Shown in pieces: positions 15,734 to 41,491 of a stretch of 44,116 bases of DNA. The stretch comes from an uncultured Ruminococcus sp. (GTDB lineage: Bacteria; Bacillota; Clostridia; Oscillospirales; CAG-272), in contig CACYYS010000006.1 in assembly GCA_902778725.1 (NCBI GenBank), positions 1 to 44,116 of the forward strand. The letters are read 5' to 3'. A program made the translations under genes and the position numbers. Numbering within the stretch: position 1 is the stretch's first letter; each line of letters opens with the position of its first letter. A model generated the notes under the pieces. The model saw only the letters and a list, made by a program, of their open reading frames with translations, did not search any database and was not told the DNA's origin.

Positions 15734-16885
15734 ATGAGAGGGATAGACGTATCCCGCTGGCAGGGAGAGATCGACTGGGAGGAGGTCGGGCGCGCCGGCG
15801 TCCGGTTTGCCATGATCAAGGCGACGGAGGGAGCGGAGGGCGCCGATCCCTGCTTTGCCGCCAATATCAACGGCGCCGGCGGCGCGGGGATCGCCTGCGG
15901 GACCTACCACTACCTGCGGGCGACGCAAAAGGAGGACGCGATCGCGGAGGCGGATCATTTTGCCGACGTGATGGATCCTTTGCGCGAGGAGATCTCCCTG
16001 TGGGCGGCGCTCGACGTGGAAACGGAGGAACACCGCCGCCTCGGGAAAAAGAAACTGACCGATCTCGTGATCCTCTTCTGCGAGCGGGTGAGAGCGCGCG
16101 GCTACCGGCCGATGCTCTATACCAACAACGACTTTATCGCCTCCTGCTACGACTTTGAGCGTCTGACCGTCTATCCGATCTGGCTCGCCTGCTGGTACGA
16201 CGGGGGCGAAAACGACCGGCCGGTCCGGGATTTTTCCTATCAGATCTGGCAGCAGGGAGTGACCCGCGTGGACGGGATCTCCGGGGACGTGGACAACGAC
16301 TACGGATATTTTGCGCTGCCGGAGGAGCCGGAGGAGATCCGGCCCGGCGACGTTGTGCGGATCCGGCCCGGCTCCCGCTACTACGGAACGGACATCCCCG
16401 TCCCGGAGGGGGTTCTTGAGCGGGCGTGGATCGTGGACTCCGTGGACGGGGACCGCGTGGTGATCGACCGCTCGGAGGACGGGACGATGGCGATCGACTC
16501 CGCCGTCGCCGCGGGCGACCTTATCCCCGTCGGAGAGGCGGAGGGAACGCCGGAAAGCCCGGAGGAAAACGGCGGCGCGGGCGAGCCGGAGGCGCCGGAC
16601 GGAGACGGCGAGAGCGGCGATCCCGCCGCTCCGCCGCAGAGCGATCCCTCGGCGGGAGAGACCCCGCCGGACGGAAGCGCCCCGGACGCGCAGCCGGACA
16701 CCCCGACGGAAGATCCGCCGCCCGGGCAGCCGGATCCCCCGACGGCCGGGCAGGACGCGGACCCCGGCGAAAAGGAAGCCGCCGCGGAGGAGGAAGCGAT
16801 GGAAAAAGGTCTGGCCGCCTTCTTCCGGATGGTCTTCCGCGCCGTCCGCACCGCTCTCCGGGCGGTGTTTGGGAGAAAAGAATAA
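15734..16885 (+). CDS. GH25 lysozyme with SH3-like domain, Pro/Asp-rich linker and amphipathic tail
   Basis: Predicted muramidase of 383 residues. The glycoside hydrolase family 25 domain occupies 1-195: DVSRWQGEIDW at the start and the catalytic LDVE (Asp94, Glu96). An SH3/KOW-like wall-binding module follows at about 200-265 (GDVVRIRPGSRYYG ... VVIDRSEDG). Then comes a low-complexity Pro/Glu/Gly/Asp linker (265-355) and a last segment (357-383) that forms a basic amphipathic helix (FFRMVFRAVRTALRAVF). There is no signal peptide: the enzyme begins directly with MRGIDVSRW, as phage endolysins do. GGAG lies 8 bases before the ATG. No holin or phage gene is nearby, so it may be a domesticated endolysin. 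Confidence 0.92.
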   Translation: MRGIDVSRWQGEIDWEEVGRAGVRFAMIKATEGAEGADPCFAANINGAGGAGIACGTYHYLRATQKEDAIAEADHFADVMDPLREEISLWAALDVETEEHRRLGKKKLTDLVILFCERVRARGYRPMLYTNNDFIASCYDFERLTVYPIWLACWYDGGENDRPVRDFSYQIWQQGVTRVDGISGDVDNDYGYFALPEEPEEIRPGDVVRIRPGSRYYGTDIPVPEGVLERAWIVDSVDGDRVVIDRSEDGTMAIDSAVAAGDLIPVGEAEGTPESPEENGGAGEPEAPDGDGESGDPAAPPQSDPSAGETPPDGSAPDAQPDTPTEDPPPGQPDPPTAGQDADPGEKEAAAEEEAMEKGLAAFFRMVFRAVRTALRAVFGRKE

Positions 16886-19113: not shown

Positions 19114-19150
19114 AGAAAACGCTTTCCGAGGAAAGCGTTTTCTTTTTTTT
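19114..19150 (+). terminator. Intrinsic terminator after the acyltransferase gene
   Basis: Stem GAAAACGCTTTC/GAAAGCGTTTTC, loop CGA-type, then eight Ts. It reaches the stop codon of the converging FtsX permease gene. Confidence 0.93.
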
Positions 19151-21842
19151 ACAGGTTTTCGTTGCGCAGGGCGTCGACGGGATTGTCGCGCCGTATCCTG
19201 CCCGCGGCGTAGAGCATCGTGGCGAAGACGACGGCAAAAACGCTGCCGACGGCAATGGCGACGCTGTACCACGGAACGTAAAAGCGGAATTCAAAGGCGC
19301 TGCTCGTGACCCTCCAGAGCGCCCAGGTCACAAGAAAAGCGGCGGGAAGACCGAAAAGCAGTCCCTTTGCGCCGTAGATGACGCACTCGTAGTTCATCAT
19401 CTTCATAAACCGGCGTTCGGAGAGCCCGATCGAGCGGAGCATCGCAAACTCGCGCCGCCGCAGGAGGATGCTGGTGGAGATGGTGTTGAAGACGTTGGCG
19501 ACGGCGATCAGCGAGATCAGCGTGATAAAACCGTAGGAAAAAACGTTGACCACGGTGACAAGCATCCGCTGGGTCTCCCGGTCCTCCGCGATATCGTAGA
19601 TCTCCGGGCTTGTATCGGAGAGCGTCTCCTTGAGGCGACCGAACTCCTGCGCCGTCCTTGCATGATCGTCGGAGGTAAACAGGAGGGTGAGATCCACCGT
19701 GTCGCGCTCCCCCTGCATCGCAAAATAACGGGAGTAGGGGAGGATCAGGCAGGGACGCCTGGAGTCGGCGCCGAGGGGCGGATTTGCGGAGAGCGCGGCG
19801 ACACGGACGCGCGTCTCTTCCACCGCTTCCTCCCGCGCAAGGACGATTGCGGCGGAGCGGTCAAGGGAGGAACCCGATCCGTCATAATGCTCGGAAAAGT
19901 ATTCCTCGGGGAAAAAGTAACAGTGCTCCGGATCATCCGGGAAAGTCATGGGGGCGTAATTCTCCATCCTCTTCAGCCGGAGAGTGCTCCCCTCGGCGGG
20001 CAGCGCCCCGCTCCGGAAGAATTCGTACGGCGTCCAGTTCCTGCCGTTTTCCCCCAACAGGACGTCCACGCCCCGGTTGAAGGCCAGCGCGACCGGCTCC
20101 TCCCCGAGGAAAAACAGGTCGGGGTCCGCGCCGTTTTCCCGGCAGAGCGCACGGAACCCGGCGTCGTCCAGATAATAAAGGGAGAAATAGGAGCCGCCTT
20201 CCGTGAAAAGCGTTCCCGCCTGCTCCGTCTCCTGCTTTTGCAGCGCCGCCTCCGTGATCAGCGCGGGATCGAAGAGGATATTCTGCCCCGCCTGGGCGTA
20301 ATAGAAGCCGGAGGTGACGCCGGCCGCGCCCGAGAAGAGCCGGAGCAGCTCCTCCTCCCCGCCGCGTCCGACCCGGGCGCTGACGGCAACGTCAGCCCCC
20401 ACGTCGCCCGCCGCGGTCGTCTCCACCGAGCGGGTCAGATAGGAGCAGAAGGAGGAAGCGGAAATAAAGAGCGTCACGCTGAGAAAGAGCGAGAGGACGG
20501 TCGAGCGGTAGCGCTTGCGGTTGCGTTTGAAATTTTTTGACGCCATCATCCCCTCAAAGCCGAACAGTTTTGCCGTCAGGGGGGAGGTGCGGACGCTGCC
20601 GGAACGGATCTTCACGTCTCCTGTCTGGCGGATCGCGTCGACCGGGGAGACGCGGATCGCGCGGCGCGCGGGGATCCAGGCGGAGATCAGCACGGTAACA
20701 AGGCAGACCGCAGCGGCGCCGAGCAGCGCCGGCGCGCTCGGGGCAAGGCGGATCGTCACGTCCCGGGCGCCGGAAAAGCGCCCGAACGCGTCGCGCAAAA
20801 AGTAAAAGGTAAGGGAAAGTCCGCCGCAGCCGCAGAGCATCCCGACGGGGATCCCCGCGCCGCCGAGCAGCAGCGCCTCCCAGAGGACGGAGGAGAGGAT
20901 CTGCTTTTTCGTCGCGCCGACCGACTTGAGGATCCCGAACTGCCGCGTCCGCTCGCTGACCGAGATCGCAAAGGAGTTGTAGATCAGGGAGATCGAGCCG
21001 AAGACGATCAGCACCGTCAGCACAGCCGCAAAGCCGTAAAGGACGGAGGCGAGGCTCCCCTCCCGCAGCGCGCCGTAGAGGCGGACCAGATCGCCGTGCT
21101 CGTACCACTCGTCCGAGACCGCATTTTTCCTGATAAAGGAATAAAACGCCCCCGTATCCTCGAGAGAGAAGAAAACGCCGTACGGCTCGCCGCCGGCGCC
21201 GACGGTAAGCGCCGTGTAGGCGGCGCTGCCGTAAGACTCCGCGGGAGCGGAGAGACGCTCGCAGATCCCGACAACGGTATAGGTCTTTTCCTCCGCGTCC
21301 TCGATCCGTTCCTCTCCCCCGTCGCCGTAAGCGACGCGCTCGGAGAGGGCTCCCCCCTCCCCGGCGCGGGATCCGACCGAAAGAGTGACGCGCTCGCCGA
21401 CCCGATAGCTGCCGCCGTTTGCGATCAGATGCGCGGGCAGGAGGAGCTCTCCCTCCCTCTCTGGCATCCGCCCCTCCCGCAGCCGGACCGCGACAAGATC
21501 GGTGAAATTGTCGGAGATGCTTTTGATCAGGAGATACGGCTTATAGTCCTTTGTCTCGACGTCGGCCTCCGCCCAGCCGACCTGAGACCAGAAGGCGACG
21601 TCCTCTACCCCCTTTGTCTCTTCGACCCGCCGCATCTCCTCCCCGCCAAGGAAGGGATAAAAAGCGGCGTAGGTGCCGCTCTCTTTTTCCTCGCAGCGGA
21701 TCAGATAATCCTGCATGCTGAAGATCGACTCGAACACCGCGGTGAACATCGCCATCGACAGAACGATGCCGATGACCGTGACGACGGTGCGGGAGCGGTT
21801 CTTTTTCAGCGTGCGGGCGGTATAACGGAAAAACACGTTCAT
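19149..21842 (-). CDS. FtsX/MacB-type ABC transporter permease
   Basis: 897-residue membrane protein with two FtsX-like blocks. An N-terminal helix (VVTVIGIVLSMAMFTAVFES) precedes a large extracellular MacB-type region. A first FtsX block lies around 275-410 (ERTRQFGILKSVGATKKQI), a second extracellular region spans about 450-750, and the last FtsX block is C-terminal (RRREFAMLRSIGLSERRF). This layout fits exporters or mechanotransmission pumps for peptides and antibiotics. Its ATG overlaps the ATPase stop (21839-21842), so the two are made together. The upstream two-component system on the same strand probably controls it. Confidence 0.92.
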   Translation of the reverse strand: MNVFFRYTARTLKKNRSRTVVTVIGIVLSMAMFTAVFESIFSMQDYLIRCEEKESGTYAAFYPFLGGEEMRRVEETKGVEDVAFWSQVGWAEADVETKDYKPYLLIKSISDNFTDLVAVRLREGRMPEREGELLLPAHLIANGGSYRVGERVTLSVGSRAGEGGALSERVAYGDGGEERIEDAEEKTYTVVGICERLSAPAESYGSAAYTALTVGAGGEPYGVFFSLEDTGAFYSFIRKNAVSDEWYEHGDLVRLYGALREGSLASVLYGFAAVLTVLIVFGSISLIYNSFAISVSERTRQFGILKSVGATKKQILSSVLWEALLLGGAGIPVGMLCGCGGLSLTFYFLRDAFGRFSGARDVTIRLAPSAPALLGAAAVCLVTVLISAWIPARRAIRVSPVDAIRQTGDVKIRSGSVRTSPLTAKLFGFEGMMASKNFKRNRKRYRSTVLSLFLSVTLFISASSFCSYLTRSVETTAAGDVGADVAVSARVGRGGEEELLRLFSGAAGVTSGFYYAQAGQNILFDPALITEAALQKQETEQAGTLFTEGGSYFSLYYLDDAGFRALCRENGADPDLFFLGEEPVALAFNRGVDVLLGENGRNWTPYEFFRSGALPAEGSTLRLKRMENYAPMTFPDDPEHCYFFPEEYFSEHYDGSGSSLDRSAAIVLAREEAVEETRVRVAALSANPPLGADSRRPCLILPYSRYFAMQGERDTVDLTLLFTSDDHARTAQEFGRLKETLSDTSPEIYDIAEDRETQRMLVTVVNVFSYGFITLISLIAVANVFNTISTSILLRRREFAMLRSIGLSERRFMKMMNYECVIYGAKGLLFGLPAAFLVTWALWRVTSSAFEFRFYVPWYSVAIAVGSVFAVVFATMLYAAGRIRRDNPVDALRNENL

Positions 21843-22531
21843 TTCCGCTCCCCCCGCAGGCGCTCGTCGCGCACGATGCGCCCGTCCTCCACGGCGATCA
21901 CACGGTCCGCCTGCAGCGCGATCGACTCGTCATGGGTGATGACGATCAGCGTCTGGGCGTATTTACGGTTCGAGAGCTTCAAGAGCTCGACGATCTCCCG
22001 GCTGTTCTTTGAGTCGAGGTTGCCCGTCGGCTCGTCTGCCAGGACGAGCGCCGGCGCGTTCATCAGCGCACGCCCGATGGAGACGCGCTGCTGCTGACCG
22101 CCGGAGAGCTGGTTCGGCAGATTGCCTTTCCGATCGGTGAGAGAGAGGGTCGTGAGCAGCTCGTTCAGCCGCTCCTCGTTGACCTTCCTGCCGTCCATCA
22201 GCACCGGGAGGGTCATATTCTCCACGACGTTCAGCACCGGGATCAGATTATAGAACTGATAGATCAGCCCGACCTGCCGGCGCCGGAAGACCGCGAGCTG
22301 CTCCTCGTTTTGCGCGTATACGTCCTGTCCGTCCATCCAGACCTTGCCGGAGGTGGGACGGTCCACGCCGCCGAGGATGTGCAGCAGCGTTGACTTGCCG
22401 GAGCCGGACGGCCCTATGATCGCGAGGAACTCCCCCTTCTCCACCGAGAAGGAGACGCCGTCCAGCGCCCGCACCTCGCCCTCCCCCGAGCCGTAGATCT
22501 TGGTAAGATCCTCTACTTTCAGAATTTCCAT
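21839..22531 (-). CDS. ABC transporter ATP-binding protein, MacB/LolD-like
   Basis: 230 residues from the ATG at 22531 (GGAGG 8 bases upstream). It has Walker A GPSGSGKST, signature LSGGQQQRVSIGRAL and Walker B VLADEPTGNLD, the NLD ending typical of the MacB/LolD/BceA group that pairs with FtsX-like permeases. In-frame codons upstream run through the regulatory hairpin and are not used. It couples ATP hydrolysis to the 897-residue permease. Confidence 0.93.
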   Translation of the reverse strand: MEILKVEDLTKIYGSGEGEVRALDGVSFSVEKGEFLAIIGPSGSGKSTLLHILGGVDRPTSGKVWMDGQDVYAQNEEQLAVFRRRQVGLIYQFYNLIPVLNVVENMTLPVLMDGRKVNEERLNELLTTLSLTDRKGNLPNQLSGGQQQRVSIGRALMNAPALVLADEPTGNLDSKNSREIVELLKLSNRKYAQTLIVITHDESIALQADRVIAVEDGRIVRDERLRGERK

Positions 22532-22554
22532 CCGGAATCCTCCTTTGTGCTTTT

Positions 22555-22620
22555 TCTCTACCAGTATAACAAAGAAAAATGACGCCTCGGTGACTTTTTG
22601 AAAATTTGTCACCGGGCGTC
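22555..22620 (-). promoter_or_regulatory. Hairpin/operator and -10 element before the ABC exporter genes
   Basis: A 13-bp stem with one bulged A, GACGCCCGGTGAC/GTCACCGAGGCGTC (22620-22581), is followed on the minus strand by ATTTTTC and then TATACT (22567-22562), 31 bp before the ATPase ATG. No good -35 precedes TATACT; the dyad sits where the -35 and activator would be. It may be a terminator of the regulator transcript, an operator for the response regulator, or both. Confidence 0.6.
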
Positions 22621-23620
22621 AGACGGTACTTTTGTAAAAGCGAAGCGTGAACTCCGCGCCGCCGGACGACGCGTTTTTCGCCGTGAGGGTGCCGTTCTGC
22701 GCCGCGGCGATCTCGCGCGCGAGAGCAAGCCCGATGCCCACGCTGTCTGGAGCAGCGTTCCGCCCGCGGTAGAACCGCTCAAAGAGCCGGGGCAGATCCT
22801 CGGGAGAGAAGCCCTCTCCGCCGTCGCGCACGACGATCTCGGTATAGAGAGGATTTTCCGAAGCTCCGATCCGGATCTCCCCGCCCTCCGGCGTATGCTC
22901 GATGCAGTTTTTGATCAGGTTGCCGAGCGCCTCCGCGCTCCAGAACGGGTCGCCCTCAAAACTCTCCTCCCCGACCGAGACGGTCAGCCGCTGTCCTCTC
23001 GCGTCCGCGAGGAGCAGGAGCGGCTCGGCCGCCGCCGATACCAGCTTTGAGACCGGAACGGGTTCCCGCCGGAAGACCGCGGTCCCCGCGTCGATGCGGG
23101 AGAGCTTGAGGAGAGCGTCGATCAGCCGGTCGATCCGGTTGAGCGAACGCTTGAGCGAGCGGAGGAGCCCTGCGCGCTCCTCCCTCGGGAGATCCTCCTT
23201 TGAGAGCAGGGAGACGGTCACGCCGATGGCGGTGAGCGGCGTGCGGAGTTGATGGGAGACGTCCGCCAGCGCGTCGCTCAGGCGCCTGCGGTCCGCGATC
23301 AGAGCGTCCGCCTGCTCCGAGAGACGCAGCGTCATCTTGCGGATCTCACTGCAGAGGATCGCCAGCTCCCCCTCCTCCTCGGAGAGCGGGAGCCTCTCGC
23401 TGCCGTGGAGGATCCGGTCAAGCTCCTCGGAGAGTGCGGCGATCGCCCGGTAGCGCCGGACCGTCGCATATGCAAAAAGGGCAAAAGAGACCGTGGCGGT
23501 CGCGAGGACCAAAAGGCCCGCGCGCACGTCGAGCAAAAAGCCGAGAAGAGAAAAAAGAACGCTCCCGGCAAAAAAGAGGAAGAGCGGCAAACGCAGCTCC
23601 GGATTTTTCAGCCATTTCAT
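22619..23620 (-). CDS. Sensor histidine kinase, intramembrane-sensing type
   Basis: 333 residues. Two membrane helices (about 10-29 and 34-53) are separated by only a few residues, so no extracellular sensor domain exists, as in BceS-like kinases. The dimerisation box is DVSHQLRTPLTAIG with phospho-acceptor His123. The HATPase domain has NLIKNCIEHTPEG (N box), RDGGEGFS (G1) and GIGLALAREI (G2). It starts directly after the response-regulator stop codon. Kinases of this kind often sense through a partner FtsX-type permease, and such a permease is encoded next. Confidence 0.93.
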   Translation of the reverse strand: MKWLKNPELRLPLFLFFAGSVLFSLLGFLLDVRAGLLVLATATVSFALFAYATVRRYRAIAALSEELDRILHGSERLPLSEEEGELAILCSEIRKMTLRLSEQADALIADRRRLSDALADVSHQLRTPLTAIGVTVSLLSKEDLPREERAGLLRSLKRSLNRIDRLIDALLKLSRIDAGTAVFRREPVPVSKLVSAAAEPLLLLADARGQRLTVSVGEESFEGDPFWSAEALGNLIKNCIEHTPEGGEIRIGASENPLYTEIVVRDGGEGFSPEDLPRLFERFYRGRNAAPDSVGIGLALAREIAAAQNGTLTAKNASSGGAEFTLRFYKSTV

Positions 23621-24289
23621 TCAGTCCACCCGATACCCGAGTCCCCGCACCGTTCTGATGACCGCGGGCGAGGCGGGGTCGTCCTCGATCTTCTCCCGCA
23701 GGCGTTTGATATAGACGGTAAGCGTGTTGTCATTGACAAAATCACCCGCCGCGTCCCAGATCTCGTCCAGCAGGCGCTCCCGGGAGAGGAGCTTGCCCCT
23801 GTTCTGGGCGAAGGTGAGCAGGATGCGGTACTCGAGCGCGGAAAGCGGCAGAGGCTCTCCGTCCTTGGTCGCGACGCCGCGGTCGGCGTCCACAAAGATC
23901 CGTCCCAGCGCGATCACCCGGTTCTCCTTCCCGCAGCGGCGGAGAACGCCGCGGATCCGGGACAGCAGCTCCCTCGGACGGAAGGGCTTTGCCACATAAT
24001 CTTCCGCACCGAGCTCCAGTCCGCTGACGGTGCTGCCCTCGTCTCCGGAAGCGGTGAGAAAGATCACCGGGAGAAGGTAGCGCTCCCGTATCTCGCTGCA
24101 GAGGGAAAATCCGTCCCCGTCCCGCAGCAGCACGTCCAGCAGCACAAGATCGAAGCTCTCCGTCTCAAGCAGCCGGAGAGCCGCGCGCCTGCCGTCCGCG
24201 TGCGCCGTCAGGAAGCCCTCCGCCGTTAGAAAGGCGGAAAGAGAGGAGACGATCTCCCCGTCGTCCTCGACCAAAAGGATCCTTGCCAT
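23621..24289 (-). CDS. OmpR/PhoB-family response regulator
   Basis: 222 residues. The receiver domain has acidic pocket VEDD at 7-10, phospho-acceptor Asp52 in LLDVLLRDGDG, and Lys in VAKPFRP near 101. The DNA-binding winged helix spans about 128-222 and ends with RTVRGLGYRVD. First gene of the RR-kinase-ATPase-permease cluster. The likely target is the dyad upstream of the ABC genes (inference). ATG with GGAG upstream. Confidence 0.94.
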   Translation of the reverse strand: MARILLVEDDGEIVSSLSAFLTAEGFLTAHADGRRAALRLLETESFDLVLLDVLLRDGDGFSLCSEIRERYLLPVIFLTASGDEGSTVSGLELGAEDYVAKPFRPRELLSRIRGVLRRCGKENRVIALGRIFVDADRGVATKDGEPLPLSALEYRILLTFAQNRGKLLSRERLLDEIWDAAGDFVNDNTLTVYIKRLREKIEDDPASPAVIRTVRGLGYRVD

Positions 24290-24356: not shown

Positions 24357-24388
24357 GAGAAAAAGGATGCCGCAAAATGCGGCATCCC
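24356..24388 (-). terminator. Intrinsic terminator of the surface-protein operon
   Basis: Stem GGATGCCGCA/TGCGGCATCC (24366-24388), then TTTTTC on the minus strand. It touches the -35 of the next operon. Confidence 0.9.
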
Positions 24389-24410
24389 TGCGATCTGTTT
24401 CGGGAGGAGA

Positions 24411-27400
24411 TCACTGAAAATCATTGTCGCAATAAGCGTTGCCGTCGAGCCATTTGGTATTGGCAAGAGCCGACTCGGTAAACGGAGCGGAAGCCGGGCT
24501 CCCCTCCGCCACAAGACATTCCTGCGCGGCGGGCGGCCCGTAGCGCCAGGACCATCCGCTCTGCGTAACGCGATAACGGCCGACCGGCAGATCCTTGACC
24601 GTAGCCGAGGATACTCCGCGAGCCGGATCAAGAAGGACGCGGAGATCCACCCAGTTGTTGTCTCCGTCCAGCCCGCGCACGGCGAACAAAAACGCCTGTC
24701 CGCCCGACGCGGTCGGTACGTCGGTAACGGAAACGGTCAGATCGCCCCGGTGAAAATCATAGAGCGCGTAGAACGAGCGGTCGGAATCGGAGGGCAGGGG
24801 CAGCAGCGCGTTTTGCGCGCCGGGGGCGACGGGAGTCAGGACGTACTCCGAGCCGTAAAGCGTATTGTCCACCGGCAGAGTGCAGTCCTCGTCGTAATAC
24901 CAGCCGACAAAGGTATAGATCGGATTGTCAAGAACGGCCGCAGAGCGCTCGGTCGGTCTCTCCCCGATCACCGCCACCTCCTGGTTGAGGGAAAGGAGCT
25001 TCGGGTTTTTCGGATCGCCGAGGATGCGCGTATTGCCGCGCGGAAGGACCGCGTAATACCGGTATACGACTTCATTGAGCGCCGTGTAAAGGAAGACGAT
25101 CCGGTTGTTCGTCATCTCCGCGTCGTCGTCCGAGACGATCCGCGTCCTCGTCTCGTTCCCCGAGAGAAGGAATCCGGGCATATCGGGCGCCGTCTCGACG
25201 TGGGTCGTGTTGTATTTCTGCGGAGCCGTGACCTTATAAAACCGTTTGTAATACACCGTCCCGCCGATCGTGACGGGATCCTCGTGCTGCAGGCCCGCGA
25301 TCCCCTTCGCCTCGATATCTTCATTGAATTCCCGGATCTTCTCTTCGTCGGTGGAGGAGATCTGATAGATCACCTTGATCGGGAAGGTTTTTTTCCGGTA
25401 ATAAATATGAAGTTCCTTGCTCGAGAGCGCCGGATCCATCACAAGGTCAACGGACGCCGCGTCCGCCGCAAGCCCGACGAACGCGCCGCCTGACGCGTCG
25501 CCGGCCATATCGTAGTCGATCTCCGCATAGCCGCACACGTCATACCCGGGATAGGTATTGACGCTTACCGTCTGCGTCGTTCCCCGCTCGTCATACCCGT
25601 CGATGAAGTTCTTCTCCCGGAAGGTCAGCGTGTCGCCGCCGACCGTCTGCGTGACCGTGCCGTTCTCATCCTCCAGCATATACTTGATATGATAGGGCAT
25701 ATTGACCGTGTCCTCGCGGTAGTAGAAGACGATCACGTTCTGCGCCGCCTCTTCCGCCGGATCGTCGGAGACGATCAGGGTCTTTGAGAGATAGTACGCC
25801 GTCGGGATATAGCCCGGCACATGCAGGAAACGTTCGGTCACGACGACCTTGCTGTTGGTCGCCACGGTTTTGACCGGCAGGAGCTCCTCTCCCGCGCGCG
25901 CGCCGTCGAGCGCCATATACTTGACGGTATACGGCACGTTATCCCGGTAGGTATACCAGAAGGTCTTGGTATTGAGGGACTCGTCCCCCCGCATCAAAAT
26001 CGAGGTGCTCGCCCGGTCGGGGAAATAATGCGACTCGTACCCGTCGTTGAGCGCGTCCTCCAGTTTTGCCGGAAAAGTCCTCGTCAGACCGACAAAGGAA
26101 TAGCCGAAGGTCTCCGGCGCGACCTCGGTCGTCGTGTTTTTCACGTAATAGTACACGTGGAAGTTTGCCGGAACGTTGGAAGACCAGCGCATAAAGAGGT
26201 GCATCCCGAAGGAGACCGTCATCGTCGCGGGATCGAAGGCGTGCAGATTACCCTCGCCGTCGTAATAATACCATCCGGCCCGCGCGGCGTTATAGTTGCC
26301 CGTGCTCGACGTGATCTCCGGCGCCGTCAGCTCGCCCTCCGCGGCGGTCGTATCCAGGTTTTCCCCGTACGTCCCCTCGCCGACGGAGATGGGCGTTCCG
26401 TTCAGATACGCGCTCTCGTCGTTGTAGTACACGATCTCATAGGTCTTCGGCTTCCAGTGCGCGTATACGATGACGTCGTGATCCGGCATCTCCTCGCTCC
26501 AGTCGAAAAGATGATCGTAGGTAGACGAATCGTACCAGCCGTCAAACTCGTAGCAGTCCGGCTCCAGACCGGCGGGATAGGGCGGCTCGGCGGCGGGCTC
26601 GAAGCCGGAGAGAGACTCGCCGAACGGGATCGCCGAGGTATCCGTCCCGGTCGAATAATAGGCGTTGTAGTTGTAATATCCGAGGGAATGGGTATTGCGC
26701 CGGTAGTGGAAGTCCGTCGTCCAGACTCCGCCCTCCTGATAATGCCCCGGATCGCTGCCGTTGTTGTTGTAGGACATAACGTGGCCGGCCGCTTCCTCCG
26801 GGATAATGGTATAACCCGTATAGACGAAGGGGTCGATCCTCGTCGTGGTATTGTGCGCCGCCACAAGCTCCAGCGTACGGTCGAGCAGATAGTAGACTCC
26901 GTTATACTCGACCGCGCCGGGAGCGGCTGGATCGGTCGTCTCGTAATAGATCTTGAAGCGGTGCGCCGAGATGTTGTCGGACGTGGTGCCCCACCAGGCG
27001 TACAGGTTCTGCGCGACCTGATCCGGATTTGCGGGGTCGTACACCGCGGCGGGATCCACGATCATTTCGGCCGACATATAGGGATAACTGCCGACGATGT
27101 TCGCGTGGTCGGAATAGCGTGCGCGGTATCCGGACCCCTTCTCGGTACTCCAGGAGCCGAAGAAGTTGGTGCCGCTCACGGAGTTGAGCACGTCGGCCGG
27201 CCAGAGATCCTCGATCTCGGCGTTGAACTCCGCCACAAGCTCGACGTAGGGCATCGTATAATCGGTGTTGCCGATCCTCTTGACGACGGTCCCCTGCGTG
27301 AGCGTGCATCCCGCTTTCACGGTGGGCATCTCCGGGATGGAACGCCATCCGAATTTTGTGATGTCGCCGTCCGACGTCCGGTTTGCCACAGCGACGTTCG

Positions 27401-28967
27401 CATATCCGGGCACGGTGGTGTAAGCGCCGGTGTCGGGATCCGCGGGGATCAGCTTGTAGGCGCCGCCCGCGTCGCTGAAGTTTGCAGAAGGACCGGCGTA
27501 TTTGCTCTTTTGACCCTTATCGTTGAGGCAGTAGCTTCCCTGTCCGATCGTCCACTCCGCCGTCCGCGTCGTGTGCTGCGCGATCGCCGTGGAGACCGGA
27601 TCCGCGGAAAGATATGCCTTTGCGGACGTGATCACAAGATACCGTCCGTCGGACGCCTGCAGGTAATAGCCGCCGCTGCCGTCGTCGATCAGGGTCCAGA
27701 CGTTTGCGGGATCGGCCGCCAGAGTGACGGTGGAAAGATAGTCGGGATTATCGGACACATTCGGCGTCACGACCTTTCCCGACCGGGTGTTCTGCAGATA
27801 GTAGGTCCCCGCCGCGACCGTCTGGGCCGTCTCCGGAATAACGGTCCCGCCCTGGGAACGCGCATAAATGAAACGGAGCTTATAGACGTTGCGGGAGTAA
27901 TAGAGCCTCACGACGGTCGACCCGTCGCTCCGGATCCGGACGGAGGCGCTGTTCTTTGCGGCGGTGGCCGCCGCGTCAAAGGTAAAATACCGGTAATCGG
28001 GGAAAGAGGTGATCTGATCCTTGTTGGCGGCGATCAGCTCGTCCAGGGTGTAAACGGTATCGGGCATCGCGGTCAGCTGCCGCTCGCCCCAGTGACTGTA
28101 CTTGGTTTCTCCGCTTCCGTCAGAGAGGTCCGCGTTGCAGTAGACGACCGTGTAGCCGACCTCGCTGACCGCTTCCCAGCGGGCCGTGCAGCGGATATCG
28201 TACGCGGGGCAGAGCGCGGGCAGAGAGGCGAGCGGTTCGTTCGTATCTCCGCGCACATAATCCCAGCCGCGGAAAACGTAGCCCGTTCTGGTCGGCGTCC
28301 CGAGAGAAAGCGGGTACTCGTACGGCACATACATCGACTCGACTCCGTAGCCTCCCGCCCCGAGGTCAACGTCGATCATATAGTAATTGCGGTCATAGTA
28401 GCACTCGAACTCCGTCGAGCCGTCCGCCGCGATGACCTCCGGCACGTGATACATCAGCGTAAAACCGTCGTAAGCGTTCTCCAACGTCCGGCCTCCCAGC
28501 TGGACGATAGGGAACGCTTCGCCGAATTCGACGGGCTCGGTCCCGGTGACGCCGGTCCCGTTGATGATCTCGGAAACGGAATAGGTATCTCCTCCGAGAT
28601 CCTGCTTGTTCAGCCGGATGACGTAGGAAACTTCAACGGGAAAATAAAATACGTCCGTTTCGTTATCGGCGTCGAACGACACGGTGACCGCGCTGAGCGG
28701 CGTTTTGTCGATCGTGTAGGGAGCAAAGCCGAGAACGGTCGGACTTTTTTGCGTAAGAGAAGAAGACCCCCTCGGCATGTTCGCGACAAACGCCGGAAAA
28801 GGGGCAGCACCTTTATGGTCGATCCTGTCTTCGTCGTAATAATAATAATTGATGGTGGCCGTCACCACGTCGGACTCCTCCGCCGAAACGAACCAAACAA
28901 CGGCGGCGAAGAAAGCCAGGACGAGCGCGAGCACGGTCAAAAAGAAACGACCCGATCTCAAACGCAT
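24411..28967 (-). CDS. Giant secreted beta-repeat protein (InlB B-repeat / MucBP-like)
   Basis: 1518 residues. An N-terminal signal or anchor helix (FFLTVLALVLAFFAAVVWF) is followed by many beta-rich modules. Listeria-Bacteroides B-repeat-like modules are seen (GYVFRGWDYV ... CTARWE near 215; CYEFDGWYDSS ... VYAHWKPKTYEIVYYN near 815-850). MucBP-like modules occur from about 1000 onward (YTVKYMALDG, then FLHVPGYIP; YHIKYMLEDENG). An internal lectin-like segment lies near 375-435 (YYLQNTRSGKVV ... GYYLQASDGRYLVI). The C terminus looks like a pilin-type beta domain ending in KWLDGNAYCDND. No LPXTG, SLH or membrane anchor is visible. It likely forms a cell-surface adhesin or fibre and follows two SipW-type proteins on the same strand. 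Confidence 0.85.
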   Translation of the reverse strand: MRLRSGRFFLTVLALVLAFFAAVVWFVSAEESDVVTATINYYYYDEDRIDHKGAAPFPAFVANMPRGSSSLTQKSPTVLGFAPYTIDKTPLSAVTVSFDADNETDVFYFPVEVSYVIRLNKQDLGGDTYSVSEIINGTGVTGTEPVEFGEAFPIVQLGGRTLENAYDGFTLMYHVPEVIAADGSTEFECYYDRNYYMIDVDLGAGGYGVESMYVPYEYPLSLGTPTRTGYVFRGWDYVRGDTNEPLASLPALCPAYDIRCTARWEAVSEVGYTVVYCNADLSDGSGETKYSHWGERQLTAMPDTVYTLDELIAANKDQITSFPDYRYFTFDAAATAAKNSASVRIRSDGSTVVRLYYSRNVYKLRFIYARSQGGTVIPETAQTVAAGTYYLQNTRSGKVVTPNVSDNPDYLSTVTLAADPANVWTLIDDGSGGYYLQASDGRYLVITSAKAYLSADPVSTAIAQHTTRTAEWTIGQGSYCLNDKGQKSKYAGPSANFSDAGGAYKLIPADPDTGAYTTVPGYANVAVANRTSDGDITKFGWRSIPEMPTVKAGCTLTQGTVVKRIGNTDYTMPYVELVAEFNAEIEDLWPADVLNSVSGTNFFGSWSTEKGSGYRARYSDHANIVGSYPYMSAEMIVDPAAVYDPANPDQVAQNLYAWWGTTSDNISAHRFKIYYETTDPAAPGAVEYNGVYYLLDRTLELVAAHNTTTRIDPFVYTGYTIIPEEAAGHVMSYNNNGSDPGHYQEGGVWTTDFHYRRNTHSLGYYNYNAYYSTGTDTSAIPFGESLSGFEPAAEPPYPAGLEPDCYEFDGWYDSSTYDHLFDWSEEMPDHDVIVYAHWKPKTYEIVYYNDESAYLNGTPISVGEGTYGENLDTTAAEGELTAPEITSSTGNYNAARAGWYYYDGEGNLHAFDPATMTVSFGMHLFMRWSSNVPANFHVYYYVKNTTTEVAPETFGYSFVGLTRTFPAKLEDALNDGYESHYFPDRASTSILMRGDESLNTKTFWYTYRDNVPYTVKYMALDGARAGEELLPVKTVATNSKVVVTERFLHVPGYIPTAYYLSKTLIVSDDPAEEAAQNVIVFYYREDTVNMPYHIKYMLEDENGTVTQTVGGDTLTFREKNFIDGYDERGTTQTVSVNTYPGYDVCGYAEIDYDMAGDASGGAFVGLAADAASVDLVMDPALSSKELHIYYRKKTFPIKVIYQISSTDEEKIREFNEDIEAKGIAGLQHEDPVTIGGTVYYKRFYKVTAPQKYNTTHVETAPDMPGFLLSGNETRTRIVSDDDAEMTNNRIVFLYTALNEVVYRYYAVLPRGNTRILGDPKNPKLLSLNQEVAVIGERPTERSAAVLDNPIYTFVGWYYDEDCTLPVDNTLYGSEYVLTPVAPGAQNALLPLPSDSDRSFYALYDFHRGDLTVSVTDVPTASGGQAFLFAVRGLDGDNNWVDLRVLLDPARGVSSATVKDLPVGRYRVTQSGWSWRYGPPAAQECLVAEGSPASAPFTESALANTKWLDGNAYCDNDFQ

Positions 28968-29000
28968 TAATGTTTTCTCTTTCTTGGATCAATCTGAGGA

Positions 29001-29585
29001 TCAATTTGAAAAATCGAATCCCCAGGCATGATAATAAGCGGGGAGAGGCGGCGTGCCGGCGTCGGTCGTTCCGACCGCCTGGATCGTCTGCGCCGCGATC
29101 TCCGCGTGCAGCGTGTAACCGGCGGGGCCGGCCCTGAGCTGCTTCAGTTTTTGTCCGTCGCCGATGAAAGCGGGAGAGAGCGACCCGCTCCCGACAGGCG
29201 AGGTGCAGTAGTAATATCCGTCCGCGCTGTTATAGCGCCAATCCGCCGTGTTGTATTCCAGCTGATAGTCATAGCCGGGATACGGCTGCTCGCCGTAGAC
29301 CCGGCCGGATCCGTCCCGCCAGGTCAGGACGAGCGCCAGACGGGCGTACACGGCATATCCGGTATCGTCCGCCCGTACGGCGACGTTGGTCTTGTAGCGG
29401 AAGCCGTCCGTGTCTGTCAAAAGCTCCTCTTCGACGGACGGCGAGCCGTAAGGCGAAGGCGTGAAGGTCTCCTCAAGAGGGTTGGAGCCCTTGATATATC
29501 TGGCGTATACCGCGGCCGCAAGCACGATCAAACAGACAAGGACCGATACGGCAAGCGCGACCGTCCGCATGCGCTTTCGTGGCAT
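29001..29585 (-). CDS. SipW/TasA-type small exported protein A
   Basis: 194 residues. A basic start MPRKRMR precedes one hydrophobic helix (VALAVSVLVCLIVLAAAVYARY), then a beta-rich exported domain with many Tyr. The YARY after the helix is the position of the A-x-F/Y-type processing motif of alternate (SipW-dependent) signal proteins such as TasA. ATG 29585 is preferred over TTG 29588 because GGGGGAG lies 7 bases before it. The sipW-like peptidase that should process it is not in the window. It is 33 bp upstream of the giant repeat protein, in the same operon. Biofilm or pilus-like fibre subunit is the working role (inference). Confidence 0.72.
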   Translation of the reverse strand: MPRKRMRTVALAVSVLVCLIVLAAAVYARYIKGSNPLEETFTPSPYGSPSVEEELLTDTDGFRYKTNVAVRADDTGYAVYARLALVLTWRDGSGRVYGEQPYPGYDYQLEYNTADWRYNSADGYYYCTSPVGSGSLSPAFIGDGQKLKQLRAGPAGYTLHAEIAAQTIQAVGTTDAGTPPLPAYYHAWGFDFSN

Positions 29586-29610
29586 CAAAAACTCCCCCCT
29601 TTCCCTGAAG

Positions 29611-30231
29611 TCAGTCGATCTGCAGCAGATAGGCGTACACGTCGAACCGGAAAGGCGCGGCGTTTTTCCCCGGATTCGTCTTGTCGCGGAAGGTGTCGCT
29701 GACCGTGAGCGTGTTCCCCCTCAGGATATAGCCGACGGTCTGCTGTGTGTTCGGCGGGATCGGTTGGGAATACTTGTATACCGTTCCGCCGTGCTGCGGA
29801 GACACCTCGGAAGTCGGCGCGAAGCTGGTACCGACGGTATAGGAGACCTCGTCCGGAGCGTTGGTAAAGATCTCGATATACAGATCGCAGGCTACTTCGT
29901 TGCTCCCGTCCAGATCGACGTACGGGTCCTTCGGGATATCCGTTCCCGGCAGGACCGCGTCGTAGGTATTGCCGTGGACGACGGTGCTCATATCCAGCGT
30001 ATAGCGCCCGCCGTCAAGGACGGCTCTGTGTTCGCAGAGCTCGGCCTGCGCCATCCTTGCGACCCTTGCCGGCTCGTCCAGCGTCCCGCTTTGCCGATAG
30101 CGGGCATAAAACGTCCGGATGAAAGGGGTCGCAGCAAGCGAAAGGAGGAGGAGGACCGACGCGGTCCGGAAAAACCTTCCGGAAAGCGAGGCGCTCTCCC
30201 CGGATCCTTTCCTCAATCCGTTTTTCTTCAT
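29611..30231 (-). CDS. SipW/TasA-type small exported protein B
   Basis: 206 residues. A basic N terminus of about 20 residues precedes a membrane helix (ASVLLLLSLAATPFIRTFYARY), then a beta-rich domain that begins with RQSGT. Like its neighbour it carries YARY after the helix, so the two are a paralogous pair by layout, though the mature domains differ. The exported part mentions no Cys pair and no anchor. First gene of the trio (206 aa, 194 aa, 1518 aa) on the minus strand with gaps of 25-33 bp. A weak promoter candidate is TTGACG/TACCGA near 30270-30240. Confidence 0.72.
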   Translation of the reverse strand: MKKNGLRKGSGESASLSGRFFRTASVLLLLSLAATPFIRTFYARYRQSGTLDEPARVARMAQAELCEHRAVLDGGRYTLDMSTVVHGNTYDAVLPGTDIPKDPYVDLDGSNEVACDLYIEIFTNAPDEVSYTVGTSFAPTSEVSPQHGGTVYKYSQPIPPNTQQTVGYILRGNTLTVSDTFRDKTNPGKNAAPFRFDVYAYLLQID

Positions 30232-30339
30232 TGTTTCCTGCAGTTACTCATCTTCTGTCGGTATGCTCCTTCGAGCGTATCGTCAAAGCAAGAGCCGCAG
30301 AGCTGAGCGCTGAGCGACTCTTGCAACCGGTCAAAACCG

Positions 30340-31074
30340 TTATTTCGCGGCGGCGACGGAGGTGATGTGGGGATTGGCGCCCTCGTACCAGTAGAGGAAG
30401 CCTTCCATATCGATCTTGTCGCCGACCTTCAGCGCTTCGACCGCCTTGTAGACGTCGGTGTCCTTGCCGCAGAGGTAGGACTCAACGGTGAAGGTGTAGG
30501 TCTTGCCGCCGACGGAGACCTTGAAGTAAAGGTCGTCGCCCTGCTTGCCGGAGCCGTCCCATTTGTAATTGAACGCATCGCCCTTATCGTTGTACGCTTC
30601 GACGGTCATGCCTTTGAAGGAAACGAACTTGTTCATTTCTTTGATCAGAGCGTCGGTGCCGAGCAGGGAGGTCACGTCCTTGGCGGAAGCGGTCCAGGTC
30701 TTGGAGGTATCGATCTTGTAGGTCGCCTCGGTGATCTCGATCTCACCGTTGACTTCCGGCCACATAGACTTGACGCCGTTCACGCGGATCTTGGTGCCGG
30801 GAACCAGTTTGTCGTAATCTTCCTTGCTGCAAGGCATGTTGTAAAGGAAGTACGCGCCGTCCTCGTTCTGCGTATAGAAGGAAGCGACGCCGACGCCGTT
30901 ATCCTCCCACCAGCCCTGCTTGGCCTGGACGTAAGTCTCGACCGTGACCTTCGACTGCAGGGCAGCCGCCTCGAACTGGGCGTAGGTCATCGCGGCGTCT
31001 TCCGTCTTCGCGCAGGCGCTCATCGCGGACATTGCCAAAACAAACGCCAAAACAAGAATACAAAACTTTTTCAT
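30340..31074 (-). CDS. Lipoprotein with OB-like beta domains
   Basis: 244 residues. Lipobox AMSAC gives Cys21. Two beta modules follow, at about 35-125 (SKVTVETYVQAKQGWW ... KIRVNGVKSMW) and about 140-240 (VSFKGMTVEAYND ... KIDMEGFLYWYEG). Both have the strand order and KI-V/M-G motif of OB-fold lipoproteins of gut Clostridia. Function unknown; a surface or small-ligand-binding role is likely. It has its own strong promoter overlapping the end of the sugar-binding-protein gene, and lies upstream of the SipW-type trio, separated by a weak hairpin region. Confidence 0.8.
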   Translation of the reverse strand: MKKFCILVLAFVLAMSAMSACAKTEDAAMTYAQFEAAALQSKVTVETYVQAKQGWWEDNGVGVASFYTQNEDGAYFLYNMPCSKEDYDKLVPGTKIRVNGVKSMWPEVNGEIEITEATYKIDTSKTWTASAKDVTSLLGTDALIKEMNKFVSFKGMTVEAYNDKGDAFNYKWDGSGKQGDDLYFKVSVGGKTYTFTVESYLCGKDTDVYKAVEALKVGDKIDMEGFLYWYEGANPHITSVAAAK

Positions 31075-31118: not shown

Positions 31119-31147
31119 ATTGTAACACGGTTTGTTCTATTTTTCAA
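31119..31147 (-). promoter_or_regulatory. Promoter of the OB-like lipoprotein gene
   Basis: Minus strand: -35 TTGAAA (31147-31142) lies in the last codons of the binding-protein gene; 17-base spacer; -10 TACAAT (31124-31119). Confidence 0.85.
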
Positions 31148-39466: not shown

Positions 39467-41491
39467 TTATTTCCCACCTTTGGATGCCTGTGAAGTGCCA
39501 TTACTGCAATATACCGTAACTAAATTAGCGTAATCAGTTTGGTAGGAAGAAATATTGTAATCTTGATATATCACACCCCAAGTTTCTTTTGACGCGTCGA
39601 AATCAATTCTCTCCAAATTGTAACAACTGCTGAAAGCCATTTTCTCAACACTCGTCACACTATTTGGAATCGTAATACTCTGCAAGGCGGTACAGAAAGA
39701 GAAAGCAGAGCGCCCTATGCTCGTCACACCTCTCGGGATCGTGATGTTTTGCAAAGCAGTGCAGCGGTAGAAAGCCTCTCCTGCAATCAATCTCGTTTTT
39801 GGATGCACGGATTTTGTCGCAGTATCCGCTTTTATCAGTACCATATAGGGGTTGCCGTTATTCCCAAGGTATTTTGCATCGTCATAAATACTATAAAAGA
39901 GATTGTTGCAACTTTTAAAGGCATCGTAGCCAACGCTTGTGACGCCATCGGGGATCGTAATACTTTGTAAAGCAGTACAACCCTGAAAAGTTCCATCCTC
40001 AATGCTTGTCACAGTATTTGGAATCGTAATACTTTGTAAAGCAGTACAACCCAGAAAAGCTACCTCTCCTATGCTTGAAACGCCATCGGGGATCGTAATA
40101 CTTTGCAAAGCAGTACAACCCCGAAAAGCCCCAGCCTCTATGCTTGTCACAGTATTTGGAATCGTAACATTTTTCAGTTTCGTACAATCCAGAAAAGTCC
40201 CAGCCTCTATGCTTGTTACACCTTCCGGGATTATCACGCTTGTTACCCCTGTCCCCCTAAAACCTCCAATCCCCGTTACAGCTCTGCCGTTATAACTGCT
40301 AGGGATATTAACAGAAGCAGCTGATCCATAGTATTTTGTAACTTTGTAACCGCCGCCGTTTTCAACTCTCTGGAATTCAAAATCGCTGATATCAATCACT
40401 GTTATCCGGCACTCAGCCGTCATTCCGTTTTTTGTTTTTGCAAAAATCGAGGCGTTCCCCTGCGCCCGCGCCGTAACGATACCGTTCACAACCGCGGCGA
40501 CAGAAGAATTTGAGCTGGACCAGAAAACAGCGGAATCCGCAGCGTTTTCCGGCAAAACAGCACAGGCCAGCGTCACGCTCTCGCCTATTGTCAGCGTGAT
40601 ATTCGATTCGTTCAAGGCAACAGAAGAAACCTCCACACGAGGCGCGCTTGTCTCTATCGGCTGCGTTTCCTCCGGTCTCGGAGCAGGCGGCTGCGTCTCA
40701 ATAGGCTTGGTCTCCCGACCGGGAGTCGGCGGCTGCGTCTCGACCGGCTTTGTCTCCTGACTTGAAATCGGCGAGACCGTTTCCGGCGGAAGTTCTTCTT
40801 GACCATTTTTTGCAATCACCTTCACGTTGCACATAGCGATCTTCCCGTTGCCGCTTGCCGCTATTACAGTTGCCGTCCCGGGCGAAACCGCTTTCACCAC
40901 TCCGTTGGAAGCGGTTGCAACGCCGAGGGCGGAACTGGTCCAGGCGACCTCTTTTTCGGTCGCGTTTGACGGTGCGAACCCGACGTGGAGCGTATAGGTT
41001 TCCCCCTCCTGCAATGTCAATTCCGTTTCAGAGAGAAAAAGCGATTCAACAGGAATCATCGCAGCTTCCTGCACAGGGGAGGTCTCTTGTGTGATACCCG
41101 GTCTGGTTGGGGTTGTTGTAACATCACTTTTTCTGCTCTCGGATGATTCGGATTTTGAAGAAAGCCGCTCGTACTCCAGTGTCATACTGCCAGCGCCGGT
41201 CAAGGTAACGTCGCCCGTAAGGGCAAGCCGGTCTCCCTTTATGACATAATCATAATCAAGGGATTTGGACAGCCCAAAAAAATCCGTTTCAATATGCAGT
41301 TTCCCGGCGTCCGTTGTGTAAGTCCCTGTGTAATTCAGCGTATTGATATTGGCAAAAAAAGTCCCGTCGTCATTGAACTGCCATGTATTGGCGCCGAACG
41401 CCCATTTGCCGACCAAGCTCTCACCGGAACAGGAAGAAAACAGAATTGCCGTTATACAAATAACAAAAAGAACAAACCATCTCTTTTTCAT
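39467..41491 (-). CDS. BspA-like leucine-rich-repeat lipoprotein with Big_2 domains
   Basis: 674 residues. Lipobox LFSSC (Cys21). A lipocalin-like beta region follows (about 25-110, LVGKWAFGANTWQFNDDGTF). Two bacterial Ig-like (Big_2) domains lie at about 150-225 and 290-365 and are joined by a Pro/Glu/Thr linker with TKPVETQPPTP-type repeats. The C-terminal half has LRR_5 units of 23 residues (CTALQSITIPNTVTSIE). Surface adhesin or protein-binding role is likely. It is AT-richer than the core genes. The gap to the upstream orphan gene is 26 bp, so they share the promoter at 42176-42205. Confidence 0.9.
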   Translation of the reverse strand: MKKRWFVLFVICITAILFSSCSGESLVGKWAFGANTWQFNDDGTFFANINTLNYTGTYTTDAGKLHIETDFFGLSKSLDYDYVIKGDRLALTGDVTLTGAGSMTLEYERLSSKSESSESRKSDVTTTPTRPGITQETSPVQEAAMIPVESLFLSETELTLQEGETYTLHVGFAPSNATEKEVAWTSSALGVATASNGVVKAVSPGTATVIAASGNGKIAMCNVKVIAKNGQEELPPETVSPISSQETKPVETQPPTPGRETKPIETQPPAPRPEETQPIETSAPRVEVSSVALNESNITLTIGESVTLACAVLPENAADSAVFWSSSNSSVAAVVNGIVTARAQGNASIFAKTKNGMTAECRITVIDISDFEFQRVENGGGYKVTKYYGSAASVNIPSSYNGRAVTGIGGFRGTGVTSVIIPEGVTSIEAGTFLDCTKLKNVTIPNTVTSIEAGAFRGCTALQSITIPDGVSSIGEVAFLGCTALQSITIPNTVTSIEDGTFQGCTALQSITIPDGVTSVGYDAFKSCNNLFYSIYDDAKYLGNNGNPYMVLIKADTATKSVHPKTRLIAGEAFYRCTALQNITIPRGVTSIGRSAFSFCTALQSITIPNSVTSVEKMAFSSCYNLERIDFDASKETWGVIYQDYNISSYQTDYANLVTVYCSNGTSQASKGGK
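39950..40210 (-). repeat. 69-bp tandem repeats inside the leucine-rich-repeat gene
   Basis: Nearly identical 69-bp units (23 codons) recur at about 39954, 40023, 40092 and 40161. Two variants alternate (IPNTVTSIE and IPDGV-SIG types), giving a 138-bp higher-order repeat. Near identity at DNA level implies recent duplication or gene conversion. Confidence 0.85.

Follow-up and report, generated by a model that had tools for sequence, protein, structure and literature searches.

Three adjacent genes in the stretch of DNA analysed here, a window of 44,116 nucleotides (contig C6) from an uncultured Ruminococcus sp., are a sipW-less, mobile branch of the SipW-dependent matrix clusters of related Clostridia. 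Homology, a conserved gene order, sipW loss, insertion of the trio and SipW-type matches confined to another contig of the same genome (C11) were demonstrated. The reading that we favour, with a probability of about 0.62, is that the trio serves a SipW-dependent matrix or adhesin system as an accessory cassette and was inserted without sipW, that its two small products, P1 and P2, are cleaved in trans by a C11 SipW and polymerise, and that its giant product, P3, is adhesive or bridging. The layout is as originally predicted, with all three open reading frames on the minus strand, gaps of approximately 22-33 bp between the genes, and one hydrophobic stretch followed by YARY in each of P1 (FYARYRQ) and P2 (VYARYIK). 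The features of the trio are as follows.

29611..30231, minus strand: P1, exported protein of 206 aa, divergent BsaA/TasA-superfamily relative (open reading frame, family alignment, hhalign, paralogue on C11 of the same genome)
30103..30231, minus strand: candidate SipW-type signal peptide of P1, cleavage proposed after FYA (A43) from the sequence
29001..29585, minus strand: P2, exported protein of 194 aa, divergent BsaA-family relative (open reading frame, TIGR04090 in the family, hhalign)
29502..29585, minus strand: candidate SipW-type signal peptide of P2, cleavage likewise proposed after VYA (A28)
24411..28967, minus strand: P3, giant of 1518 aa with InlB-type repeats (open reading frame, PF09479 and TIGR02543 above cut-off)
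27627..27818, minus strand: ricin-type lectin-like stretch of P3, residues 384-447, match below cut-off
26442..26558, minus strand: best InlB/List_Bact repeat of P3, residues about 804-842 (PF09479, TIGR02543)
24411..24698, minus strand: C-terminal domain of P3, ending in the shared tail WSWRY...WLDGNAYCDNDF (sequence, comparison of giants)

The P2 reading frame encodes 195 aa from a TTG codon (29001-29588) and 194 aa from the ATG at 29585. At the proposed cleavage sites, Y45 is invariant in the P1 family alignment, and A28 of P2 is nearly invariant in one family alignment and invariant in another. No curated model names the window P1 or P2, neither of which matches TIGR04090 or TIGR04088 at E<=1. 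Thirteen of 19 P2-family members, the window P2 not among them, match TIGR04090 (BsaA family) at E<=0.001, and none of 17 P1-family members matches any NCBIfam model at that threshold. The families were also compared with a SipW-cognate reference set of 17 TasA-like proteins from related clusters, in which TIGR04088 is matched by 9/17, TIGR04090 by 7/17 and PF12389 by 8/17. Hhalign related the P1 family to this set at 99.1% (E 6.9e-19) and the P2 family at 99.4% (E 9.4e-22), while the control comparison of the two families with SipW peptidases gave 4.3% and 11.7%, respectively; P1 and P2 compared directly are weakly related (48%). The predicted likeness to SipW-cognate matrix proteins is thereby borne out, and at the level of sequence profiles the P1 and P2 families are shown to be homologous to SipW-cognate BsaA/TasA-like proteins. 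In the AlphaFold models of both P1 and P2 (mean pLDDT 81.1 and 87.6, respectively), a helix at the N-terminus is followed by a stretch of poor prediction and a strand-rich domain. Foldseek searches of the PDB with these models gave no match at E<=0.001, and all VIA-align comparisons gave Z < 8. The P1 model aligns with the TasA fibre 8aur_A over 125 residues (Z 5.4, rmsd 3.6), which is one of many tied rows; for the P2 model the best Z, 6.1, is to chains other than TasA, and the TasA fibre is not among the rows. Searched against the PDB by sequence, the P2 profile gave weak unrelated chains only (E>=0.34) and the P1 profile none.

Two studied systems can be compared with the trio. The C. perfringens sipW-bsaABCRSD operon (PMC7395162) has, in the same way, a SipW-type peptidase, small BsaA-family proteins that are kin of the P2 family, and further secreted proteins. 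BsaA forms filaments in this species and is retained in the cell in a sipW mutant, which shows SipW dependence in a related system. The operon holds sipW, bsaA-D and a two-component system with a sortase gene adjacent, whereas the window has no local sipW; unlike the operon, the trio includes a 1518-aa InlB-repeat giant, and the two-component system of the window belongs to the insertion flank. The B. subtilis tapA-sipW-tasA system combines a signal peptidase with small beta-sandwich matrix proteins, as in the system proposed for the window, and its TasA uses an N-terminal strand for donor-strand exchange (PMC9674648). The window differs in that sipW is absent locally, neither P1 nor P2 matches a TasA model, and a giant repeat protein is present. 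Clusters of related Clostridia, of which C11 carries the version in the same genome, contain the same protein families as the trio, which is set apart by its P1-P2-P3 order, a P1 clade of its own (100/99) and the lack of a local sipW. The suggestion of an undescribed system was therefore too strong: related genomes group sipW, TasA-like genes, a giant and a P2-like gene together, and the trio is a sipW-less branch of this widespread kind. Text searches of the literature found no description of such a cassette.

At its N-terminus, P3 has a Sec signal of ordinary appearance (VSA followed by EE). Its description as an InlB-repeat/MucBP-like giant can be kept in its first half, with matches to the PF09479 List_Bact_rpt/InlB-type repeat (39.3 bits, cut-off 27, in three stretches) and to TIGR02543 (50.8 bits, cut-off 20.95), and dropped in its second, as no MucBP family match was found at E<=1 in a search whose HMMER filters can drop weak matches. 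The C-terminus reads without an LPXTG motif or a transmembrane tail, in line with the predicted lack of an anchor motif; of the hallmarks of a sortase-assembled pilus, neither a sorting signal on the P3 C-terminus nor a sortase on C6 was found. Giants are a near-constant presence beside P2-like genes. After removal of one duplicate contig, 32 distinct close homologues of P2 (E<=1e-50) remained, of which 29 adjoin a same-strand open reading frame of at least 480 aa. In two of the other three the contig ends within the giant, and in the last (L085) a sortase takes its place. The tail signature W.[WF]R ... W[LM] is present in 23 of 28 complete giants and absent in five, and the signature-bearing frames (24 with the duplicate included, among 96 long open reading frames) all adjoin P2 homologues; these counts are a description and no independent test, because the signature was derived from the same giants. 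Both the near-constant adjacency and the common tail would also suit a system whose main adhesin is P3, with P1 and P2 limited to a short anchor or chaperone complex and no long fibre. In C. perfringens, bsaB and bsaC are dispensable for BsaA polymers (PMC7395162), so that a gene sharing the operon of a fibre protein does not have to encode a fibre subunit. The studied superfamily members TasA and BsaA nevertheless form filaments (PMC9674648, PMC7395162), and we regard the short complex as possible but the less probable arrangement.

A P1-family scan of named genomes gave 20 loci. The trio is conserved as a unit, as had been expected of it: P1, P2 and the start of P3 recur in the same order in two other metagenome-assembled genomes (MAGs), one from sheep omasum (L082, where the contig ends within P3) and one designated Tb.RUG.108 (L083), both with sipW ahead of P1. 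Their small proteins are 57-64% identical to those of the window, and the C-terminal part of P3 (67% identity) lies on a separate contig of the L082 genome. Since orthologues of P1, P2 and P3 all exist, the trio is not a chance assembly. In a third MAG, Tb.RUG.165 (L084), P1 stands at a contig end with no sipW beside it, and a SipW cluster lies on another contig (L097, the same stretch as L014). Among more distant P1-P2 pairs, the next gene is a giant in L088 and a class B sortase in L085 (11268-12005, directly after the pair; TIGR03064, E 1.4e-70). Among 146 genomes of the family, with that of the window counted, P2 is found in 18, P3 in 14 and P1 in five; in the class, 20 of 291 genomes match the P2 profile at E<=1e-10. 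An over-cut-off TIGR02228 match is present in 17/18 P2-positive genomes versus 55/128 others (Fisher p 2.3e-5), a co-occurrence that is to some extent inherent, most P2-like genes being located in sipW-containing clusters. The related Clostridia clusters hold SipW, TasA-like genes, a giant and a P2-like gene, some with a Cna-B anchor-like protein and a sortase-like gene in addition. The Cna-B-rich protein of L064 (8209-10041; similar in L067 and L070) has an ending that resembles a sorting signal (QTGQLNWPIPVL) and is followed in all three loci by the sortase-like gene; it is a possible cell-wall anchor in these other clusters. Genes in the other loci were called with a simple script and no standard gene finder, with plain open reading frames used for L071, where the script chose the wrong strand; in the window, the script miscalled two genes near 33-35 kb that the list of open reading frames shows.

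The insertion of the trio could be delineated by comparison with congeners, of which G110 gives the boundaries below.

24373..30339, no strand: inserted segment of 5967 bp, replacing 28 bp of G110
30340..31074, minus strand: upstream flank, small exported protein of 244 aa, a host gene outside the cassette
23621..24289, minus strand: downstream flank, response regulator, a host gene outside the cassette
24363..24389, minus strand: intrinsic terminator after P3, 12-pair stem with a T-rich tail whose T tract is matched in the alignment by the T tract of the empty site
31119..31147, minus strand: sigma-70-like promoter, 10 of 12 positions, before the upstream gene (consensus scan only)

G110 aligns at 85-87% on both sides of the segment, which in this alignment falls between the upstream gene's stop and the T tract in the terminator of that gene. 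The genes on either side of the trio are approximately 112 bp apart in G110 and G057, so that the sites there are empty; empty sites were demonstrated in these two congeners and not in the other three. Both genomes (97-98% complete) contain no P1, P2 or P3 and no TIGR02228 match, and P1 occurs in one of six genomes of the genus. Occupied and empty sites in close relatives are what a mobile insertion leaves. The only gene calls within 24373-30339 are P1, P2 and P3, with no integrase or transposase, and a script scan found no shared words of 9 to 14 bases at the two segment ends. A recent foreign composition was rejected, the GC content of the segment being 0.596 versus 0.599 in the rest of the window. 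The downstream flank continues as a response regulator, histidine kinase, ABC ATPase and FtsX permease in succession (19149-24289, minus strand); because the terminator directly follows P3, the genes of the response regulator and the ABC transporter seem to constitute a unit of their own. G110 has a site similar to the upstream promoter (11 of 12). The consensus scan found no promoter-like site between 30231 and 30340, directly before P1, so that the trio may be transcribed by read-through from the promoter of the upstream gene. Elsewhere in the window are another surface protein, of the BspA-type leucine-rich repeat kind with Big_2 domains (39467-41491, minus strand), and a glycosyl hydrolase family 25 (lysozyme-type) protein (15734-16885, plus strand).

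The genome of the window comprises 2.10 Mb in 96 contigs and is 85% complete, so that absences outside C6 are provisional. A profile search found two TIGR02228 (SipW-type) matches, both on C11, and three PF04203 sortases, on C5, C12 and C22. The window contig thus has neither enzyme, as the original prediction held, and the genome-wide check that it called for places the SipW-type peptidases at one distant locus only. This locus (G000:C11, L081 6768-19188) is an old, paralogous, full SipW cluster. Besides the two peptidases, it encodes two TasA-like proteins, a membrane protein of 263 aa, a P1-like protein, a giant of 1935 aa and a P2-like protein. The SipW near its P1-like gene has Ser57 and His93, both invariant across 15 aligned homologues. 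As the only SipW-type peptidases found lie elsewhere in the genome, the trio probably depends on an enzyme from another locus. A point against cleavage in trans by SipW is that the VYA site of P2 also suits ordinary signal peptidase I: with RY after it, it fits an A-X-A-like site, and another S24/S26 match in the genome, located on C58, looks like an ordinary peptidase. Together with the lack of sipW in the gene cluster of the trio, this could mean that P1 and P2 are cleaved by signal peptidase I and act as secreted beta-sandwich helpers of P3, SipW being irrelevant here. We consider this unlikely, as the orthologous trios of L082 and L083 have sipW immediately upstream, P1 and P2 share profile homology with SipW-cognate proteins, the FYA site of P1 has a bulky residue at -3, and the two trio-free congeners have no TIGR02228 match.

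The separation of the trio from sipW can be followed in trees and in one relative. Window P1 and those of L082, L083 and L084 belong to a single clade (100/99) that excludes the C11-type P1s. The C11 P1 being in this other clade (100/100), the window trio is no recent copy of the C11 cluster, and a recent duplication was ruled out. In the sipW tree, the L083 sipW falls within the C11-type clade (100/100) and the L082 sipW outside it; L083 is therefore a natural pairing of a C11-type sipW with P1 and P2 of the trio type. The P1 DNA of L083 and L084 is 98% identical over 407 bp, versus 74% in the core purA-purB-guaA, which were named by our reading of the proteins. The shared stretch starts in the last 25 nt of sipW, where 23/25 positions are identical versus 15/60 just upstream, and L084 hence keeps the scar of a lost sipW. 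Two features precede its P1.

L084 8793-8821: consensus promoter, 12 of 12 positions, before P1
Within L084 8946-9043: 3' scar of sipW, 25 nt, ahead of P1

Every junction is internal to its contig, which makes it probable that both arrangements are real at the DNA level; as the relatives are MAGs in which binning errors are possible, the assignment to species rests on binning, and a chimera is possible. A sipW remnant upstream of the window P1 was rejected, as alignment scores of 8-10 against four targets are in the range of shuffled sequences (mean 8.5, max 12; control run against one of the four targets). The scar in L084 and the missing sipW beside window P1 could also point to a decaying remnant that has lost its peptidase and leaves P1 and P2 uncleaved in the membrane, but this is improbable, since P1, P2 and P3 are intact in the window and, where not cut by a contig end, in the three trio relatives, the L084 P1 has a full consensus promoter, and SipW-type enzymes exist on C11.

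In the mechanism that we propose for the inserted cassette, it would have been gained by insertion with its own sipW missing. P1 and P2 are probably exported with SipW-type signal peptides, which the SipW-type peptidases of C11 would cleave in trans. Donor-strand exchange between the beta-sandwich subunits, enabled by the freed N-terminal tails, might then build a polymer, as it does in TasA fibres. P3 would be exported by ordinary Sec and signal peptidase I and may be the adhesive or bridging element, bound to the fibre through its conserved C-terminal domain and tail; as the near-constant neighbour of the giants, P2 is the most likely adaptor for this tail. A bolder and tentative version is that a mobile, peptidase-free matrix cassette uses the SipW-type peptidase of its recipient, the giant being captured by a pilin-like adaptor, P2, via a new C-terminal docking tail (W.WR[YF] ... 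WLxG), a non-LPXTG mounting on Gram-positive fibres.

If the favoured reading is true, SipW-dependent surface systems would be modular, and their substrates would move between genomes without the peptidase and be served in trans. Operon-based annotation would miss such systems, because the substrates travel apart from the peptidase. Related clusters occur in many gut and rumen Clostridia MAGs, and with the shared tail of the giants and their near-constant small partner, a mounting of giant adhesins that is free of sortase signals becomes testable.
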